Shown piece by piece: positions 155-8,594 of a DNA stretch of 64,000 bases. A program made the position numbers and the translations under genes. The stretch is from Acidobacteriota bacterium (GTDB taxonomy: Bacteria > Acidobacteriota > UBA6911). The stretch covers positions 1 to 64,000 of the forward strand of contig JAFGIY010000258.1 in NCBI GenBank assembly GCA_016929335.1, given 5' to 3'. Every line of letters begins with the position of its first letter. Within the stretch, counting starts at the first letter, position 1. Below the pieces are notes generated by a model. That model saw nothing but the letters and a program-made list of their open reading frames with translations, was not told the DNA's origin and made no database searches.

Positions 155-1444
155 CTAACCCGCATGAACCGCAGAGCCGGCAGCCCTCATTTTCTGAAGA
201 ATCGTCCGGCGCATCCTGAATAGAAATAGAACCAGGAACGCTGTCAGGGCGGTCAGCGCAATCAGCATTTCAAATACCGGCAAATAGCTTTTAAACGCTT
301 CCTGCATCCTGGCAATGACCGTAATGGCTATGCCGCCGGCGCCGACATCCACCATGGTCAATATCCCGAGTATTTTTCCGTAAGACTGGCCGGAATAAAA
401 CTCGGCAATTACCAGCTGTATCATGGTAAAGGTGCCGCTATAGCCGATGCCGAAGACGGCGGCATAGCAATACAATCCGAAAAGGTTCTCTGCGCTGGAG
501 AACCTCAATAGAACCAATCCGCCAATCAGCGCAAGAACCACGGTGAACATGATGAGGACCTTGTCGAAATGATCGCTCAGATATCCGATCAGCAGTTTCC
601 CGATGATGGCAAACCAGAAAATGGCGCTGACTATTACGGGCAGAGTATCCATCGTAATCCCCAGTTCTTCACTCAGGAAGATTGTCTGATGCTGAACAAT
701 GCCGTTCATGCAGAACCAGAGCGAGCCGGTAGCAAAGGCGAGGATGTAAAACGCCGGCATGCGCATCGCCTGCTTCAGTGTCATTCCTGCATGCGAAGGC
801 CGTTGTACCGTCAGATCGGGCGATTCCGGCTTCAGATGATCTTCGTCGGGTTGCAGCCCTTTATCCTCTGGCCGGCTGCGAATCAGGAATATCAACGGTA
901 TAAGCGTCATTATTCCGGTAATAGGTGTGAGAACGAGCAGGGCATCGCGCCAGCTTCCCCATGTCAATACCTGTTTCACGACAAGCGGGAAAATGGCGCC
1001 GCCAATATCAGGTCCCATCAGGGTAATGCCGACCGCGATGCCCCGATAGCGTTTGAACCATCGCGTGATCACCAGCATGGTCGGCACCTGTCCTGCGCAT
1101 ACCTGCGACAGTGAAAATACCATGTAGATGAGCGCCATCTGTGTAAGTGTGTGAAGCGTGCTGTAACTGTAAAGTGCCAGGGTAGCGGCAGCAGCTCCAA
1201 CGATCATAAACAGCCGTGCCGAAAAACGGTCGAAGAACGAGCTGACAAAGGGAGTGAGGATGGCGCCGGTCAGATAAAATATTGTTGCAGCCCGCGTGAC
1301 TTTCTCGGTGGACCAACTGAATTCCCTCATCAGTTCGGGATAAAACAGCGGCAGAGTGTATATCTCAATCCCGCACAGGGCTGTATAGCTTGCAAAAATC
1401 CCAAACAGAACCCACCATCCGTAGAAGAAGCGCTTCCCGGCCAT
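155..1444 (-). CDS. MFS transporter, OFA/monocarboxylate-type
   Basis: This is a predicted 12-helix inner-membrane carrier of the major facilitator superfamily, 429 residues, a normal full length. The N-terminus (FYGWWVL, residues 7-13) is typical of the OFA/MCT-like branch, which moves oxalate, formate or other small carboxylates. Loop motifs DRFSARL (about residue 72) and SDHFDK (about 290) match the repeated motif A between helices 2-3 and 8-9 of MFS proteins. A hydrophilic central loop (about 190-220, SRPEDKGLQPDEDH) separates the two six-helix halves. The substrate cannot be read from the sequence. It stands alone downstream of the cytochrome gene on the same strand, about 215 bp away with an inverted repeat between them, so it is probably a separate transcript. 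Confidence 0.8.
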   Translation of the reverse strand: MAGKRFFYGWWVLFGIFASYTALCGIEIYTLPLFYPELMREFSWSTEKVTRAATIFYLTGAILTPFVSSFFDRFSARLFMIVGAAAATLALYSYSTLHTLTQMALIYMVFSLSQVCAGQVPTMLVITRWFKRYRGIAVGITLMGPDIGGAIFPLVVKQVLTWGSWRDALLVLTPITGIMTLIPLIFLIRSRPEDKGLQPDEDHLKPESPDLTVQRPSHAGMTLKQAMRMPAFYILAFATGSLWFCMNGIVQHQTIFLSEELGITMDTLPVIVSAIFWFAIIGKLLIGYLSDHFDKVLIMFTVVLALIGGLVLLRFSSAENLFGLYCYAAVFGIGYSGTFTMIQLVIAEFYSGQSYGKILGILTMVDVGAGGIAITVIARMQEAFKSYLPVFEMLIALTALTAFLVLFLFRMRRTILQKMRAAGSAVHAG

Positions 1445-1598
1445 AAATCCCCTTCGGCTGAACTAAATGAGTCCGCTAAAACAGGCGCCCATTATAATCA
1501 CACTACGGTCTGCAAACTAACAAGTAATCGACCGCGCCTGGATGGAGTGGTGATATATCGGAGTTGGGGTCGGTATTGGTATCGAGAAAAAAGCAAGC

Positions 1599-1644
1599 CA
1601 CGAATCTCACGAATATATTGCAGCTTGGTTCGTGAAATCCGTGG
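1599..1644. repeat. imperfect inverted repeat, 16-nt arms
   Basis: The arms at 1599-1614 and 1629-1644 are complementary with two mismatches (CCACGRATYTCACGAA) around a 14-nt loop. The hairpin starts 15 bp beyond the cytochrome stop codon and could act as a transcript end or mRNA stabiliser. It may equally be a dispersed intergenic repeat; copy number in the genome would tell. Confidence 0.45.
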
Positions 1645-1658
1645 CTGAAGGCGGATAT

Positions 1659-3029
1659 TTAATTTTTCGTCCAGTGCTTGATCAATTCCATCTTCTTTGC
1701 ATCCAGATCGAATCCGGGACAACGGTCGTCAGTATGGCACTTGATACACAAAGCCATTACCGGTTTCGTTGCCGGTTTCTTGCTCATGTCGCTCAGATGC
1801 TCCCTGGCAGATCCATGACAGGACTCGCACTGCACATTCACTAATTCCATCTGTTGCTGTTTCATGCTGAATCCGTCAGGCTGCTCAAACAGTGTCGTAT
1901 GGCATGCGAGACATTTGGGATCGAACTGCTTTGTTTTTCCGACCAGAGTGCTGTAAGCCTTGGCGTGGTCCGTGCCCTTCCATTGTTTTACCTGTTCGGA
2001 ATGGCAAGGCTCGCAGGTGCTGAGTCTCAGCTCGATGCTGGCAGCCGCCGGTCTGCTTTCGCCGGCGCCGCCGTACATGTCGGCTATCTTGTCGTTATAG
2101 GCGGTGATCATTTCCTTAACTTTCGGATCGTTTGGGATATCGTCATTAAAAGGAACCAGCTTGTTGGTGGCAGTTTTGGTTCCGTCCATGGCGACCTCGA
2201 GAATACCCTGGTACTGCCCCTTCTCGCCGGCTTGAACGATAAGGGTTTTCTCCGCCTCGAACGGCTCCTTGGTTTTCTGCTTATCATGTCCACCTACGAC
2301 CAGATCGATTCCCTTAATCCTTCGTGCAATCACCCAGTCGCGGTTGGTCCCCTGATGTGTCAAAGCGATTATGTAATCAACTTTCCCCGCAAGTTCTTTC
2401 ACAATTGCTTCGGCAGCCTCCAAAGGATCCAGAACGTAGGCAGCATCTTTGGTGATTTCACTCACCTTGCTGACCATATCTGACGTATCTCCGATGACTC
2501 CGAAAATCCCCACGTTCTTGTCCCCCACCTTCTTAATGATATAACGCTTGAAAATCGGGGTATCTTTGTCGTCAACAAGATTGGCCGAGACGAAGGGGAA
2601 GTCATACTTCTTCTCGAGTTCTTTGAGATAATCGATTCCCAGCACCAGATCGAGTTCTCCCACACCGACTGCGTCGATGCCGATATGTTTGTAGATCTGA
2701 GCAATGACGTCGGCCTTCAGTTTTGCCGATTGCTGTATGCTTTCCGGGATTTCCTCGTCTTCGTTTAAAAGATCGCCGGAATCGACGATGATCAATGGGG
2801 TTTGGCTTTTTCGGATTTGATCAAAATATGAAGCTTTCTTATACAGCCCTCCGAGCTGTTCTCCGGTTTCCATTCAACCACATGGCTCGAGATATCCCAC
2901 CATGCATCCGCTGTAAGCTATGGCGATCTTGGAGACGTCCGCAGCACGGGAACTGTCGATCGACAGGCTTGTCGAAAGAAGGATAGCGGCGCCCAAAAAC
3001 AACAGCGCAATGTAAAAAACTCTCTTCAT
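1659..3029 (-). CDS. predicted selenoprotein: metallophosphatase-like domain fused to tetrahaem cytochrome c
   Basis: Read from ATG 3029 with one in-frame TGA (2874-2876) as selenocysteine, the product is 456 residues. Residues 1-30 form a Sec signal peptide (MKRVFYIALLFLGAAILLS then SRA-AD). Residues 32-320 resemble the 5'-nucleotidase/UshA metallophosphatase fold (VDSGDLL near 82, GVGELDL near 122, LTHQG near 223, VVGGHDK near 244). Four CxxCH haem sites follow at about 339, 373, 401 and 428, of cytochrome c554 type. The TGA is codon 52, in YLEPCG-U-METGEQLGGL. From memory, relatives read EPCGC followed by LGGLARR, so Sec replaces a Cys two residues after C50. The start is firm: AGGAGG (3039-3044) lies 9 nt upstream. 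The ATG just after the TGA has no Shine-Dalgarno and would give a haem protein without an export signal. It probably acts in the periplasm. The reaction is unknown. The alternative is a nonsense mutation. Confidence 0.8.
2843..2859 (-). promoter_or_regulatory. putative bacterial SECIS hairpin
   Basis: On the mRNA strand the bases right after the TGA fold into a perfect 7-bp stem (ACAGCUC with GGGCUGU, one U-G pair) closed by a GGA loop at 2850-2852. The loop starts 21 nt after the TGA. Known bacterial SECIS elements have a small apical loop with G among its first two bases, 16-37 nt from the UGA. All three criteria are met. It lies within the coding sequence, as bacterial SECIS elements do. 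Paired bases and distance are read directly; binding by SelB is inferred. Confidence 0.7.
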
Positions 3030-3275
3030 TATTATCTACCTCCTGATGTACGCACGCAGACAACCGTTTCCTGTCCTCTGCATTCAATAAAGTTTTAGGC
3101 CGCTTTTATGATAGCATTTCGTCCTGCCGCCTCACCAGCAATACATTAGACCGGACATCCTGCCGGTCAGATACATATACGATGGCAACGGATGCATGTT
3201 TTACTCACTTATCTATCGGTATCGGAGTCGGCTTCTGGTACATGAGCTTCCTTTCCGACTTCCGGACACGCCTGT

Positions 3276-3698
3276 TTAATGCTGGACTTCAAGCAGCTGG
3301 ACCTCAAAATCAAGAGTGGAATTGGGCGGTATAGTCGGCGGTGCGCCGACTTCTCCATAGGCGAGATTTGGGGGGATGATCAGTTCTCTTTTCCCTCCGA
3401 CTCTCATTCCTTCAATGCCGCGGTCCCATCCTTCGATAACCTCGCCGGCACCGAGCTTAAAGGTAAACGGCTGTGAAGCATCCAGAGAGCTGTCAAACTT
3501 CTTCCCCCGGCGCCCGTTTTTATAAATCCATCCCGTATAGTGAACGGTAACAGTCGATCCTTTGGCCGCCTGCGCTCCGGTTCCAACGACGATGTCAGTA
3601 GTTTTCAATTCCGACAAGGAATTGCCGGAACAGGAAGCGAGAAAAAAGGCAAGAGCCAGAACTATTACAGCAGCAGATAGGGACTTAATTGTCATCAA
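3276..3698 (-). CDS. FKBP-type peptidyl-prolyl isomerase lipoprotein
   Basis: A 140-residue FKBP that catalyses cis-trans isomerisation at proline bonds and acts outside the cytoplasm. Residues 1-22 are a lipoprotein signal ending in the lipobox LASC (lipidated Cys23). A single FKBP domain (about 33-138) carries the expected pocket motifs VHYTGW, KKFDSS, VIEGWD, GGKRELIIP, LAYGE and a DFEVQLLEV end. It has no dimerisation domain, so it is shorter than Mip or FkpA. It is on the same strand as the cytochrome gene but 246 bp upstream of it, and is likely monocistronic. Confidence 0.9.
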   Translation of the reverse strand: MMTIKSLSAAVIVLALAFFLASCSGNSLSELKTTDIVVGTGAQAAKGSTVTVHYTGWIYKNGRRGKKFDSSLDASQPFTFKLGAGEVIEGWDRGIEGMRVGGKRELIIPPNLAYGEVGAPPTIPPNSTLDFEVQLLEVQH

Positions 3699-3786
3699 AT
3701 CGTTCTTCCCCCCCTCAATTATTATTAAACTGATCCCCAGGTTACATCCGGCGGGATTTTACTACGATATTGCCGCATGAAGATGA

Positions 3787-3981
3787 GAAATCACGTTCGC
3801 CTCGCATCGGCATACGCCCGATGGCAAATATGAAGCTTACTCCTATCTTTTTGCCTATGAGTTCGAACTGCCGGCAAATACCGAGATATTTTCCTTGCCG
3901 AGAAACGAGAAGATCTGTGTATTGGCAGTTACCGTATCTGACGGAGACGGCAAGACCCGCCCGGCTTTTCCACTCCAGTAG
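3787..3981 (+). pseudogene. C-terminal remnant of an alpha-mannosidase-like glycosidase (GH38 type)
   Basis: One frame reads about 62 coherent residues to a TAG at 3979-3981: SHRHTPDGKYEAYSYLFA, then YEFELPAN, FSLPRNEKI and LAVTVSDGDGKT. This resembles, from memory, the C-terminal beta-domain of GH38 alpha-mannosidases (SHRHtpdG...YlFaY...LPdnekirilAvtv). Two TGA codons (3778, 3784) interrupt the frame immediately upstream and no start or catalytic part is present. It is therefore a relic of a gene whose 5' part was deleted or rearranged. The family assignment rests on a short piece and is tentative. Confidence 0.5.
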
Positions 3982-4461
3982 GGGGCTGCACCGGCGCGTA
4001 CAATCCGGCCAAGCTTTTGCCGAAGGCTGGTGCAAAGAAAGGGAACAATCCTAGTGTCTCAAGCTATCGAGCCGATGCGATAGAGGCCAAAAGCTCATTG
4101 AACAAATTGAAATGAGGTCCCGATGCAAATACGCACGCACTGAGTCATGTGGGTCGCGGCTTCAGCCGCGACATGTTGGTGCAAACAGAAGATCAGGCAT
4201 ATCTTACACATGGGATTTATTGCGCGTCGCGGCTGAAGCCACGACCCACATGTGGGAAAAGACACCCACAATGTCAACTGCGTCCTACAGCGAGGGCTCT
4301 GCCGGAGTGATGTTGGCCCGCGGATGGTTTATTGCCCTGTCGGGTTTTCCTTCTCCTTCCCATATTACGGAATGGCCTTAGCGCAGATTTCAAAGATTGC
4401 GCCCGGCTGGTAGGTATGCTATTTTTTCCGCTTATCATAGCTCAGGAATAAGGAAGGGACC
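3982..4461. other. gene-poor stretch with REP-like elements
   Basis: No convincing gene is present. A short reading frame ending with TGA 4113-4115 has no start and no recognisable product. The stretch holds a pair of inverted REP-like palindromes and, just before the next gene, a weak sigma-70-like promoter (TTGCGC 4397, 17-nt spacer, TATTTT 4420). It looks like decayed DNA between the accessory genes and the core genes. Confidence 0.4.
4147..4251. repeat. inverted pair of REP-like palindromic elements
   Basis: Copy 1 (4147-4172) contains the near-perfect palindrome GTCGCGGCTTCAGCCGCGAC. Copy 2 (4226-4251) is the same 26-nt unit in the opposite orientation with one mismatch. Each can form its own hairpin, and the two can also pair with each other around a 53-nt spacer, as in a BIME. 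Such units are usually dispersed intergenic repeats mobilised by RAYT (TnpA-REP) proteins. No such protein is encoded in this window. Confidence 0.65.
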
Positions 4462-5241
4462 GTGGGAACAACAAAACTTACCCGCAAGGAAATTCTTGCC
4501 GAAGATCCGGTGCACGAAGGGATTATTCGAATAATCGAATTCTTTCGGGCAAACGGCAAAATGGTCGGCATAGGGGTTGCGATTATTCTGGTTTTGGCTC
4601 TGGGAATCTATGGCGGAATTCAATATCTCGATCGCCTGGAATTGAAGGCTCAGGAGACTCTGGGGAAGGGCATGGACCTTTTTCATGCTGAAGTTTCCGC
4701 CGATGCCACCGACGACCCCTATAGCAAGGGGGCGACTCCCACGTTTCGCAGCGATTCGGACAAATACAAGGCTGCTACCAGAGAATTTTCCTCCGTTGTC
4801 GAAGGACACAAATTCGGGAAGGTAACGGTTATAGCCCGATACTATCTGGGGCTTTCACAGCTCCAGATGGGCCAAAAACAGGAAGCGATCCGCAATCTGG
4901 AGCAGGTTTCGAGCAATTCCAAGGAACGAACCATCGGCTTTCTGGCAAAGAGAGTACTGGCAACCGAATATATGAATTCGGGCAATTTTAAGGGAGCCGG
5001 GGATATCCTCGAAAGCATGATACGAGACTCGCAGTACCAGCTTCCCAAAGAGGATCTGAGCCTGCAGCTGTCCAAAGTTCTGGTTGCCCAGGGGAAACGC
5101 GACGAAGCCATCAAAGTTTTGCGTGATGCCAGTTCCCAGGCTGCGGCTTTCAGTTCTTACCAGCAACAGGTGGCAACAGAATTGGCTAAGCTGGAAAAGG
5201 CGCCTGCGGCCGCTTCCAATCCACAGCAGGCTCGTCCCTAG
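4462..5241 (+). CDS. membrane-anchored TPR protein, YfgM-like
   Basis: A 259-residue protein with a cytoplasmic N-terminus, one transmembrane segment at about 34-54 (MVGIGVAIILVLALGIYGG) and a long helical region. The helical part (about 60-245) carries TPR-like repeats, for example ARYYLGLSQLQMGQKQEAIR and LATEYMNSGNFKGAGDI. The layout matches the YfgM/TPR_21 group, which in E. coli works beside the Sec translocon and periplasmic chaperones. The start is GTG at 4462 behind AGGAAGGG. It is followed after 144 bp by a promoter and yceD, so it is probably its own transcript. The exact role is inferred from fold only. Confidence 0.65.
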   Translation: MGTTKLTRKEILAEDPVHEGIIRIIEFFRANGKMVGIGVAIILVLALGIYGGIQYLDRLELKAQETLGKGMDLFHAEVSADATDDPYSKGATPTFRSDSDKYKAATREFSSVVEGHKFGKVTVIARYYLGLSQLQMGQKQEAIRNLEQVSSNSKERTIGFLAKRVLATEYMNSGNFKGAGDILESMIRDSQYQLPKEDLSLQLSKVLVAQGKRDEAIKVLRDASSQAAAFSSYQQQVATELAKLEKAPAAASNPQQARP

Positions 5242-5326
5242 GGGGCGGGCATGATTTAAATCCGGGGGATGGATTCTCCTACAGATGTGCCGTGCCCTAA
5301 GTCCTTGTATTACACAGGCTTTATCC

Positions 5327-5354
5327 TTGACAAAGATTCTCCCGTTAATATAAT
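5327..5354 (+). promoter_or_regulatory. consensus sigma-70 promoter for yceD-rpmF-plsX
   Basis: TTGACA (5327-5332), a 16-bp spacer and TATAAT (5349-5354) match the sigma-70 consensus at all twelve positions. The predicted start near 5362 is about 25 nt before the GTG of the yceD-like gene. This suggests strong constitutive expression, as expected for a ribosomal-protein operon. Confidence 0.8.
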
Positions 5355-5385
5355 TTCCCCCTCGCTGTAAGGCAGGAGTTTTGCT

Positions 5386-5919
5386 GTGTTCATTGAAGTT
5401 CAGGATTTAAAGCAGGAACCATTTTATGTCCGGCATGTATTCCCGATTGGAGAGATAAAGTATTCACATGAGGATGCAGGCTTAAGCGAGCCGGTAGTTG
5501 CCGATTTTGTCCTTACGCATAGAGACCGGGATCTTCATGTAAACGGCACCGTCGAAACGGCTATTCGCTATCGATGTTCCAGGTGCACGAAGGAATTCTC
5601 CAAAGCATTTAATGTCGGCTTCGATTTGACGTATTTGCCGCAGCCCAAATGGACCAATGAGGATGCGGAGATTGCACTTAAATATGATGAAATGAATATC
5701 GCATACTATGACGGGATTGCTCTTGATGTGAACCTTATGGTTCTTGAGCAAATCGAGCTTGCGATGCCAATGAGGTTTGTTTGTCGTGAGGATTGTAAAG
5801 GCCTCTGTTACAAATGCGGCGCCGATTTGAATGAGGGTCTGTGTTCCTGCAAAGACGAGGAAACGGATTTTCGCTTATCTGTCTTGCTGGAATTCCGGCA
5901 GAAGAAGATGGAGAAATAG
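5386..5919 (+). CDS. yceD: YceD/DUF177 family protein
   Basis: A 177-residue protein of the DUF177 (YceD) family, almost always encoded directly upstream of rpmF. In E. coli and plants the family is linked to 23S rRNA accumulation and 50S assembly. Two cysteine clusters are visible: YRCSRCTKEF (about 62-71) and CREDCKGLCYKCGADL with a later CSC (about 131-156). They suggest metal binding. The start is GTG 5386, preceded by GGCAGGAG. The position between a consensus promoter and rpmF supports the assignment. The molecular function is not established by this sequence. Confidence 0.85.
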   Translation: MFIEVQDLKQEPFYVRHVFPIGEIKYSHEDAGLSEPVVADFVLTHRDRDLHVNGTVETAIRYRCSRCTKEFSKAFNVGFDLTYLPQPKWTNEDAEIALKYDEMNIAYYDGIALDVNLMVLEQIELAMPMRFVCREDCKGLCYKCGADLNEGLCSCKDEETDFRLSVLLEFRQKKMEK

Positions 5920-5982
5920 GCGGACGGGTCCTTATAATTTTCACAAGAGAGTATAATTTCCCCACGATGGAGAACAGTACTA

Positions 5983-6168
5983 ATGCCTAATCCAAAAAGG
6001 AGACATTCCAAGTCGCGCCGCGGGAAGCGCCGTGCGCATGACTTTTTGCAGACTGTTAATCCCAGCATCTGTCCCCAATGCCTCGAGCCCAAGGCTCCGC
6101 ATCAGGCTTGCCCGAAATGCGGCTTTTACAAAGGGCGGCAGGTGATGGAAGGTGAAGAAGAGATTTAG
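5983..6168 (+). CDS. rpmF: 50S ribosomal protein L32
   Basis: A 61-residue L32. The basic N-terminus (MPNPKRRHSKSRRGKRRAHD) is diagnostic, and four cysteines in CPQC and CPKC form the zinc ribbon, so this is the zinc-binding (C+) form. It follows yceD by 63 bp. A second -10-like TATAAT (5952-5957) lies in this gap without a good -35. The base run around it (TATAATTTCCCC) is the same as at the yceD promoter, so rpmF may also have its own start. Confidence 0.95.
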   Translation: MPNPKRRHSKSRRGKRRAHDFLQTVNPSICPQCLEPKAPHQACPKCGFYKGRQVMEGEEEI

Positions 6169-6211
6169 TCCAGTTGCATAAAGCTCAGCATAGAAGCATT
6201 TGCCGGCTTAC

Positions 6212-7240
6212 ATGATCAAGATTGCCGTGGATAGCATGGGGAGCGATAACTCCCCAATCAGCGAAGTTGAAGGAGCCGTTCAGGCTGCAAGAGCCTATGA
6301 CATCAACGTGATCCTTGTGGGCAAGGAGTCTTTGCTGGCGCCTCTGCTGAAGGAGTCTGGCGGTGACGGATTGCCTGTCGAGATTCGAAATGCGACTCAG
6401 GTCATCGCGATGGATGAGCCGCCCACAGCGGCGCTCCGGAGGAAAAAAGACTCTTCTATCCGTGTGGCTGCGGAGCTTGTTCGGGAAAAGGTCGCGAGCG
6501 GACTGGTGAGCGCCGGTAATACCGGCGCCGTCATGGCGATTTCCAAGATGGTATTTGGTTCCGTCCCCGGCGTCGATCGGCCGGCCCTGGCTGCAATTCT
6601 GCCGACATTGGCAGGCCACGCCGTTCTGCTGGACGTCGGCGCCAATGTTGCCTGCAAACCGCATCACCTCGTGCAGTTTGCCGTCATGGGGCACCTGTTC
6701 AGCAAGAAGATCGTGAATGTTGCCACGCCTCGCGTCGGTCTGATGTCGGTTGGCGAGGAAGAGTCCAAAGGCAACGAACTCACCAAAGAAGTGCACAAAG
6801 CCCTGAAACAGCTTCATTTGAATTTTATCGGCAATGTCGAGGGTCGAGACATCTATAACGGCCGTGCGGATGTTATTGTATGTGACGGCTTTACCGGGAA
6901 TGTTGCGCTGAAGACGAGTGAGGGCCTCATTGAGGCAGTCCTGAAGCTTCTTAAGGATGAGCTGTCTAGAAACCTGCAGGCCAAGCTGGGCGCCCTGCTG
7001 AGCCAGCAATCCTTTAAGCGCCTGAAAAAACGGCTCGATTATTCAGAGTACGGCGGCGCTCCTCTTCTCGGGCTGCGCGGTGTTTCGATCATCTGCCACG
7101 GAAGGTCCAGCAGCAACGCGATCAAAAACGCAATCCGTGTTGCGAAGGAGTTCGCGGAAAATCAGATGAACGCCAAACTTGAGGTCGAGCTTAGCCAGAT
7201 AGAAAACACATCAAAAAGAACCGTTTCGGTCAGCGGGTAA
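6212..7240 (+). CDS. plsX: phosphate acyltransferase PlsX
   Basis: PlsX converts acyl-ACP and phosphate to acyl-phosphate, the donor for PlsY in phosphatidic-acid synthesis at the inner membrane. The product is 342 residues from ATG 6212 (MIKIAVDSMGSDNSP). A TTG four codons upstream (6200) is possible, but neither start has a strong Shine-Dalgarno. Family marks are AVDSMGSD at the start, SAGNTGAVM (about 105), DVGANVACKP (about 145), VEGRDIYNGRADVIVCDGF (about 212) and GGAPLLGLRG (about 280). It completes the common yceD-rpmF-plsX operon. The usual downstream fabH-fabD-fabG genes are missing here. Confidence 0.95.
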   Translation: MIKIAVDSMGSDNSPISEVEGAVQAARAYDINVILVGKESLLAPLLKESGGDGLPVEIRNATQVIAMDEPPTAALRRKKDSSIRVAAELVREKVASGLVSAGNTGAVMAISKMVFGSVPGVDRPALAAILPTLAGHAVLLDVGANVACKPHHLVQFAVMGHLFSKKIVNVATPRVGLMSVGEEESKGNELTKEVHKALKQLHLNFIGNVEGRDIYNGRADVIVCDGFTGNVALKTSEGLIEAVLKLLKDELSRNLQAKLGALLSQQSFKRLKKRLDYSEYGGAPLLGLRGVSIICHGRSSSNAIKNAIRVAKEFAENQMNAKLEVELSQIENTSKRTVSVSG

Positions 7241-7382
7241 GGGAGGAAACTGGGCGGAAAACAGCTGTCGAAATTTGGCGGGTTTCCACAGAATAGAAAT
7301 GGGATCCGGCTGCATTTATTCCTGCTTTATCCGTGTGCCCGCAAATTGGATAGTGAGGCCGAAGTTCCAGGCACCGAAGCGC

Positions 7383-7410
7383 TTGCTTCCCCTGTCTGCG
7401 GTGCTACAAT
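7383..7410 (+). promoter_or_regulatory. sigma-70-like promoter for acpP
   Basis: TTGCTT (7383-7388), a 16-bp spacer and TACAAT (7405-7410) lie about 64 bp before the acpP start in a 233-bp gap that has no other gene. A separate promoter here would let acpP be expressed more strongly than plsX. The match is good but not perfect. Confidence 0.5.
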
Positions 7411-7473
7411 GTGAGGCTTTCCGCCGCGGCTTTTGGGCTCGCTGGTGACCGATATGAAAGAGGAGGAACTGGG

Positions 7474-7710
7474 ATGGCATCGGTAGAAGAAAAGGTCAAA
7501 TCGATTATTGTGGATCAGCTGGGCGTCAACGAGGCCGAAGTAACGGGCAGCGCATCATTTGTTGACGACCTGGGTGCGGATTCTCTGGATACGATCGAGC
7601 TTGTCATGGCTTTTGAAGAAGCCTTCGGCATTGAAATCCCGGACGAGGATGCCGAAAAGATAAAAACTGTGCAGCACGCAATCGAGTATATTGAGGCTCA
7701 TGTAAACTGA
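7474..7710 (+). CDS. acpP: acyl carrier protein
   Basis: A 78-residue acidic carrier that holds growing fatty acyl chains on phosphopantetheine. The attachment site is Ser37 in [16 protein letters not shown], the classic DSL motif. ATG 7474 is chosen because AGGAGG (7461-7466) precedes it at good spacing; longer readings lack homology. It sits directly after plsX without fabHDG and before etfBA, an unusual neighbourhood for the housekeeping ACP. The sequence itself is a typical FAS-II ACP. Confidence 0.95.
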
Positions 7711-7817
7711 AACGAGCCAAATTGTGAAGCGGCCTATTGCCGTAAAAGTCGTGGAATTCACTCCACGCGAGGAACTGACGCCTTGCGAATCAGATCACAG
7801 GAAATGAGGAATTCAAT

Positions 7818-8594
7818 ATGAAAATAGTCGTTTGCGTCAAATTTGTCCCGGATACCGCTACTAAAATTAAAATCGCTTCAAGCGGAAACGAGATCGACTT
7901 CGCGGACGTTACATTCGTTGTGAATCCCTACGATGAGTTTGCGGTGGAAGAAGCTCTTAAGATCAAAGAGAAGCTCGGCGGCGAAGTTGTTATTGTTGGC
8001 GCCGGAGCCGAACAGGCAACTACAGGCCTTCGGACATGCCTGGCAATGGGAGCGGATTCCGCTGTTTTGATCGGGGATCCATCGCTGGAAAAGGCGGATT
8101 CTTTCGTGATCGGCTCCGTTCTGGCCAAGGTATGCGGCAATCTCAATCCAGATCTGATCCTTTTTGGAAAGCATGCGATCGGAGTCGATAACGGCCAGGT
8201 CCCTGCGGTAGTGGCCGATCAGCTGAACCTTCCCCAGGCTACGGTGGTAACGAAGCTCGACATACAGGATAAGAGCTTCAGGGCGGAAAGAGATATCGAG
8301 GGCGCAGTCGAAATTGTCGAGGGCAGCCTGCCGGCGGTTGTTACCGCTCAAAAGGGCTTGAATATCCCGCGCTATGCATCTTTAAAGGGAATCATGGCCG
8401 CCAAGAAAAAACAGATTGCCGTCCAGACCGTAGCCTCACTCGGATTGTCTGCGGAAGATCTGAAGCCGCGCATTTCTATCGAGCAAATCACTCTGCCTCC
8501 CTCGCGTCCTCCGGGAAAGATCCTGAAAGGAGACGTTGCCGAGGTCGTGCCTCAGCTGGTGAAGTTGCTGCATGAAGAAGCGAAAGTCATATAA
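7818..8594 (+). CDS. etfB: electron transfer flavoprotein, beta subunit
   Basis: The 258-residue small subunit of the EtfAB heterodimer, which accepts electrons from acyl-CoA or other dehydrogenases and passes them to the quinone pool. The start KIVVCVKFVPDT, the nucleotide-site region NPYDEFAVEEAL (about 37-48), GADSAVLIGD and the ETF signature ending KGLNIPRYASLKGIMAAKKK (about 180-200) are typical. ATG 7818 follows a weak GAGGA. It is paired with etfA 52 bp downstream. No acyl-CoA dehydrogenase is adjacent, so the electron donor is encoded elsewhere. Confidence 0.93.
   Translation: MKIVVCVKFVPDTATKIKIASSGNEIDFADVTFVVNPYDEFAVEEALKIKEKLGGEVVIVGAGAEQATTGLRTCLAMGADSAVLIGDPSLEKADSFVIGSVLAKVCGNLNPDLILFGKHAIGVDNGQVPAVVADQLNLPQATVVTKLDIQDKSFRAERDIEGAVEIVEGSLPAVVTAQKGLNIPRYASLKGIMAAKKKQIAVQTVASLGLSAEDLKPRISIEQITLPPSRPPGKILKGDVAEVVPQLVKLLHEEAKVI

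Follow-up and report, generated by a model that had tools for sequence, protein, structure and literature searches.

We report a gene that, judging from its sequence, almost certainly encodes a selenoprotein of the UshA-like CxU family NF041198. It lies at 1659..3029, on the minus strand, in a 64,000-nucleotide stretch of the genome of an Acidobacteriota bacterium (UBA6911; assembly GCA_016929335.1, contig JAFGIY010000258.1, positions 1 to 64,000), hereafter called the window. The explanation that fits best overall, and in which we have high confidence, is an exported UshA-like CxU selenoprotein that lacks the full two-metal hydrolase site and carries a Cys-Gly-Sec pair, with a possible redox role, together with haems. 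As such it adds one well-supported member to a selenoprotein family that already has a name, and does not represent a new kind. The initial annotation of the window had proposed a probable new selenoprotein, wrongly, as the protein scores 368.9 bits (cut-off 275) against the NCBIfam model NF041198 (UshA_like_PCGU, "UshA-like (seleno)protein"), with both domains covered. This equivalog model has 519 positions, of which 4-271 and 348-517 are matched, the second half by the haem region. The protein shares with the family the CGU/CGC motif at the same place, and no family-relevant difference was found, the genus being 2-3 residues longer between CGU and GG. The annotation also did not count the family among the known bacterial selenoproteins, but UshA-like CxU proteins are tabulated in a 2008 ocean survey ("COG0737, UshA-like", motif CxU, 76 selenoproteins; PMC2398784), in the list of a 2022 review (PMC9312934) and in the table of a 2026 review, where the UshA-like protein with CxU is NF041198 (PMC13188914).

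With TGA read as selenocysteine (Sec, U), a single frame of 456 residues runs on the minus strand from 3029 to 1659 and ends in TAA. It holds only one in-frame TGA, at residue 52 (2876..2874), from which 404 residues extend to the TAA. The start ATG (3029-3027) is preceded, 9 bases upstream, by AGGAGG (3044-3039). Read from the sequence, the parts follow in the order signal peptide, EPCG-TGA, degenerate 5'-nucleotidase-like domain and four CxxCH motifs (residues 339-343, 373-377, 401-405 and 428-432); the signal peptide was called by eye, without a predictor. The C-x-U motif, at the N-terminal end of the nucleotidase-like domain, consists of C50 and U52. Pfam places Metallophos at residues 60-249 (E 4.3e-5) and Cytochrome_C554 (PF13435) at residues 338-406 (E 1.2e-16); the latter is the C-terminal domain shared with cytochrome c554, here fused behind a nucleotidase-like domain. 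The initial annotation thus had the gene and TGA coordinates right, without stating the strand, and its strong Shine-Dalgarno sequence, its signal peptide in frame through one TGA and its metallophosphatase-like domain with four haem motifs were all recovered. Its placing of the UGA at the second Cys of EPCGC is likewise supported.

The TGA is conserved well beyond this gene. Among 100 related genomes (the window's own and 99 others), NF041198 scored above cut-off in ten, namely the window's own and nine others of the same genus, with one TGA each; the nine other proteins are 57-70% identical to the window protein. The identical TGA stands in the same column in all ten genus genomes searched and in 11 more distant genomes. 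In an alignment of 30 loci (L021-L050), a subset of many matches, column 52 holds U in 21, Cys in seven and Tyr in two. The Tyr pair (L048 and L050) resembles ordinary nucleotidases, and the remaining 28 are CG-U/C homologues in which Cys50 and Sec/Cys52 are invariant. Orthologues with UGA or Cys at this column were sought and both kinds were found, so that the relatives with Cys mentioned in the initial annotation do exist (7 of 28, against 21 with U). On a tree built without column 52 the U label requires six changes, at least three of them forced by well-supported branches, and in family f34 one U member and one Cys member stand side by side. Between the window gene and its nine genus relatives, nonsynonymous divergence (dN) is about 0.2-0.4 on either side of the TGA and synonymous divergence (dS) is above 0.9 or saturated; dN lies well under dS on each side wherever dS is computable, saturation affecting several comparisons. 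In the two closest pairs dN/dS is about 0.3 for the part upstream of the TGA, with the signal peptide counted in, and 0.1-0.2 for the part downstream. The TGA at 2876..2874 is very probably decoded as selenocysteine. The features of the locus are the following:

3039..3044, minus strand: Shine-Dalgarno sequence AGGAGG (from the sequence; GGAGG in 10 of 10 genus loci)
1659..3029, minus strand: predicted selenoprotein gene, UshA-like CxU family with a tetrahaem tail, 456 residues and TAA
2940..3029, minus strand: signal peptide over residues 1-30 (its boundary set by eye; hydrophobic N-terminus in seven aligned genus sequences)
2880..2882, minus strand: Cys50, first of the C-x-U pair (Cys in 28 of 28 CG-U/C homologues)
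2874..2876, minus strand: in-frame TGA, predicted selenocysteine 52 (U 21 and Cys 7 among the 28 homologues)
2843..2859, minus strand: hairpin like a selenocysteine insertion sequence (SECIS), 7 bp, 3-nt loop 22-24 nt past the TGA (predicted for all ten members of the genus)
2070..2933, minus strand: 5'-nucleotidase/SoxB-like domain of metallophosphatase fold, spanning about residues 33-320, with changes in several metal-ligand columns
2001..2015, minus strand: haem motif 1, CEPCH (sequence and genus alignment)
1899..1913, minus strand: haem motif 2, CLACH (sequence and genus alignment)
1815..1829, minus strand: haem motif 3, CESCH (sequence and genus alignment)
1734..1748, minus strand: haem motif 4, CIKCH (sequence and genus alignment)

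All ten genus genes are predicted to fold a hairpin downstream of the TGA, with a stem of 7 bp or more and a 3-nt loop 22-24 nt past the TGA. There are 60 columns with an invariant residue for which at least four codons are possible; four of them show the same codon in every one of the ten genes, and of these, three (59, 61 and 62) fall within the hairpin. Each of the 11 more distant U members also folds a hairpin, its loop starting 19-29 nt past the TGA (dot-bracket notation read by eye). Because this spacing is similar despite the 2-3 extra residues that the genus proteins carry between CGU and GG relative to the more distant homologues, what the hairpin maintains seems to be its spacing from the TGA rather than a fixed position in the protein.

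The genome also holds the machinery for selenocysteine. All four genes sought in this assembly (258 contigs, fragmented, estimated contamination 6.3%) are present: selC as a tRNA-Sec with anticodon TCA by ARAGORN, selB (384.6 bits, above cut-off), selA (568.5 bits) and selD (375.7 bits). A second match above the Rfam tRNA-Sec cut-off is a tRNA-Ser according to ARAGORN. The tRNA-Sec gene (L001, G000:C136:5-99) sits at the extreme end of an 8.5-kb contig, and selD (L018, G000:C4:71092-72027) has an in-frame TGA of its own within SAAGUAAK; read in this way, selD is a selenoprotein gene too. Counted by hand, selB is above cut-off in 21 of 21 U genomes, 6 of 7 Cys genomes and 79 of the 100 genomes overall. 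Since six of the seven Cys genomes have it, the Cys form is not due to loss of the machinery. The association of selB with the U form (21/21 against 58/79, Fisher test, p 0.0055) is weak, as the 79 include genomes with further, unexamined TGA-bearing matches; in one of these, G031, the best selB match is under the cut-off and contains a TAA.

What the protein does is best approached through its metal site. UshA-type enzymes bind two metals through the ligand motifs DxH, GD, NH, H and GHxH. At columns 42, 44, 86, 125, 126, 225, 248 and 250 the window protein has C, V, D, E, L, H, H and K, compared with D, H, D, N, H, H, H and H in the nucleotidases L048 and L050; the complete two-metal ligand set of UshA and the metallophosphoesterases is absent from it. 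Across the 28 homologues, His is kept at column 44 in one, at column 126 in none and at column 250 in two, with Asp at column 86 in 11, His at column 225 in 12 and His at column 248 in nine. The name "metallophosphatase" in the initial annotation therefore suits the fold, but not the site, in which several catalytic ligand columns are changed. Unlike the 5'-nucleotidases UshA and CD73, which keep these columns, the protein has no 5'-nucleotidase C-terminal domain among its Pfam matches up to E 0.001, and the tetrahaem tail stands there instead. A 5'-nucleotidase role was placed second on account of the changed ligand columns. Against the SoxB thiosulfohydrolase model the protein scores 99.3 bits, far from the cut-off of 550. 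A structure model (9 rows; mean predicted local distance difference test score, pLDDT, 62) is fair to good over most of residues 60-290; with the nucleotidase-like part compared by Foldseek and VIA-align, nucleotidases top the list, and the likeness to the SoxB fold is no higher than that to nucleotidases.

Because the metal-site histidines are nearly all lost and Cys50 and Sec/Cys52 are invariant, the sequences suggest redox or thiol chemistry beside the haems rather than phosphate hydrolysis. We envisage that SelB and tRNA-Sec would decode the UGA at 2876..2874, aided by the hairpin just downstream, and that the mature protein would be located outside the cytoplasm. Its 5'-nucleotidase-like domain no longer has a full two-metal hydrolase site, and the Cys-Gly-Sec pair is conserved a few residues behind the position where the first ligand motif would be. 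This pair would most likely carry out thiol/selenol redox or sulfur chemistry, with electron exchange between it and the fused tetrahaem domain of c554 type. Taken alone, the redox mechanism falls a little short of an even chance. More tentative still is a generalization to the UshA-like CxU lineage, in which a hydrolase fold might have lost its two-metal site and gained an adjacent Cys-Sec redox centre, in many members wired to haems, perhaps giving a selenium-dependent extracytoplasmic oxidoreductase on a phosphatase scaffold.

Several observations weigh against this interpretation. The window hairpin is of ordinary stability (z -0.65 against shuffles and -0.20 against synonymous recodings); L035 and L037 among the distant members and L028 and L030 of the genus are no stabler than their synonymous recodings (z >0), and the Cys member L049 forms a hairpin at the same distance. 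Mean hairpin z is -0.99 for U members (n=21) and -0.005 for Cys members (n=7), a weak difference (p 0.042), and Rfam gave no match in the whole window at gathering scores or in 2750-2950 at E up to 10. The tree puts the nucleotidases L048 and L050 next to the genus on a weakly supported branch (87/59), and a single clade of CG-U/C proteins is therefore not recovered. Nor do all homologues formally belong to the family. Of ten scanned singly, L022, L025 and L036 (278.1 bits when read whole) are above the NF041198 cut-off, L039 (266.6 bits) and L043 (259.8 bits) fall narrowly below it, and five haem-less ones reach 130-180 bits; the 28 are therefore a related set, not all of them formally family members. 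The haem domain is lacking in the alignment of nine of the 28 (L031, L032, L034, L035, L037, L041, L042, L044 and L047), whose frames are short (308-371 residues). Therefore two architectures exist, and coupling to haems is not general. The structure model is poor at residues 47-54 and after 321, leaving the Sec-to-haem distance unreadable. Finally, the genus retains D86 (10/10), H225 (10/10) and H248 (8/10), and metal could therefore still bind.

Such binding is the core of the alternative that survives best, although we consider it unlikely. Here selenocysteine would replace cysteine at a metal site, with C50, U52 and D86/H225/H248 binding metal, and the domain would still be a hydrolase, for instance one with sulfur compounds as substrates, like SoxB. 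The retention of these three residues in the genus speaks for it. The near absence of His at columns 44, 126 and 250 among the 28 homologues, the low counts of Asp86, His225 and His248 in the same set, and a fold no closer to SoxB than to nucleotidases speak against it. Far less probable is that translation really ends at the TGA and that the haem protein begins at the adjoining ATG (2873-2871). The window gene does have an ATG directly after the TGA, and the open reading frame listing gives a 404-residue frame from there, but in the ten genus genes the following codon is ATG in two, GTG in two and a non-start codon in six, for which reason a start after the TGA was rejected. As the initial annotation had argued, the haem protein would also lose its ribosome site and export signal: no GGAGG-like Shine-Dalgarno sequence precedes 2873-2871, the upstream ATG has GGAGG in 10 of 10 genus genes, and a cytochrome c would be left without export. 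A sequencing or assembly error at 2874-2876, conceivable in so fragmented and partly contaminated an assembly, is the least probable of all and was rejected, as the TGA recurs at the same column in 20 other genomes (nine of the genus and 11 more distant). The six genes lacking a start codon and the invariant upstream GGAGG make a plain stop or an error very unlikely.

Returning to the Cys-Sec selenoprotein, its relation to the second named family, NF049981 (UshA_like_Sel_2), is weak (38 bits, cut-off 140); the motif of that family is CxxU and not CxU in the table of the 2026 review (PMC13188914), and across the window's own genome NF049981 matched the same gene alone, below cut-off. The terms selenoprotein, Acidobacteri and UshA were not met together in any of the papers listed, although the occurrence may still have been reported, and neither were selenoprotein, multiheme and metallophosph in the literature searched. 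A term search of the deep-Sep paper (PMC12013277) did not find UshA and found Acidobacteriota in a single table row. A scan of genome contigs with two peptide patterns derived from the genus alignment, whose reach is limited to close relatives, gave eight loci, all Acidobacteriota. Against plasmids, tblastn gave 98 records, all below 60% identity and none spanning 80% of the query; the annotated ones among the best 20 of the 98 are nucleotidases or SoxB.

The gene adds a genus of Acidobacteriota to a selenoprotein family that is named and, as far as the cited tables go, apparently functionally uncharacterised, and a read-through first spotted by eye is now supported. Standard gene callers would be expected to place the start after the TGA, leaving out the Cys-Sec pair along with the signal peptide. 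The changed metal-ligand columns offer a testable function for the family, namely redox or sulfur chemistry in place of phosphate hydrolysis. The metal-site change in the homologues has possibly been less noticed, and may be the part most worth specialist attention.

Seven neighbouring genes of the window (span 155-8594) were compared with the loci of eight relatives, with names given by eye and without family search. Genes for a TPR protein, DUF177, plsX, acpP and etfB adjoin the selenoprotein gene on the opposite strand in six of the eight loci, as in the window. No conserved operon partner that tells of function was found among the seven, and the same-strand flanks in the window, an FKBP-like gene (3276-3698) and an MFS-like gene (155-1444), were matched in none of the eight loci. 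In this genome the upstream FKBP-like gene could share a transcript with the selenoprotein gene.
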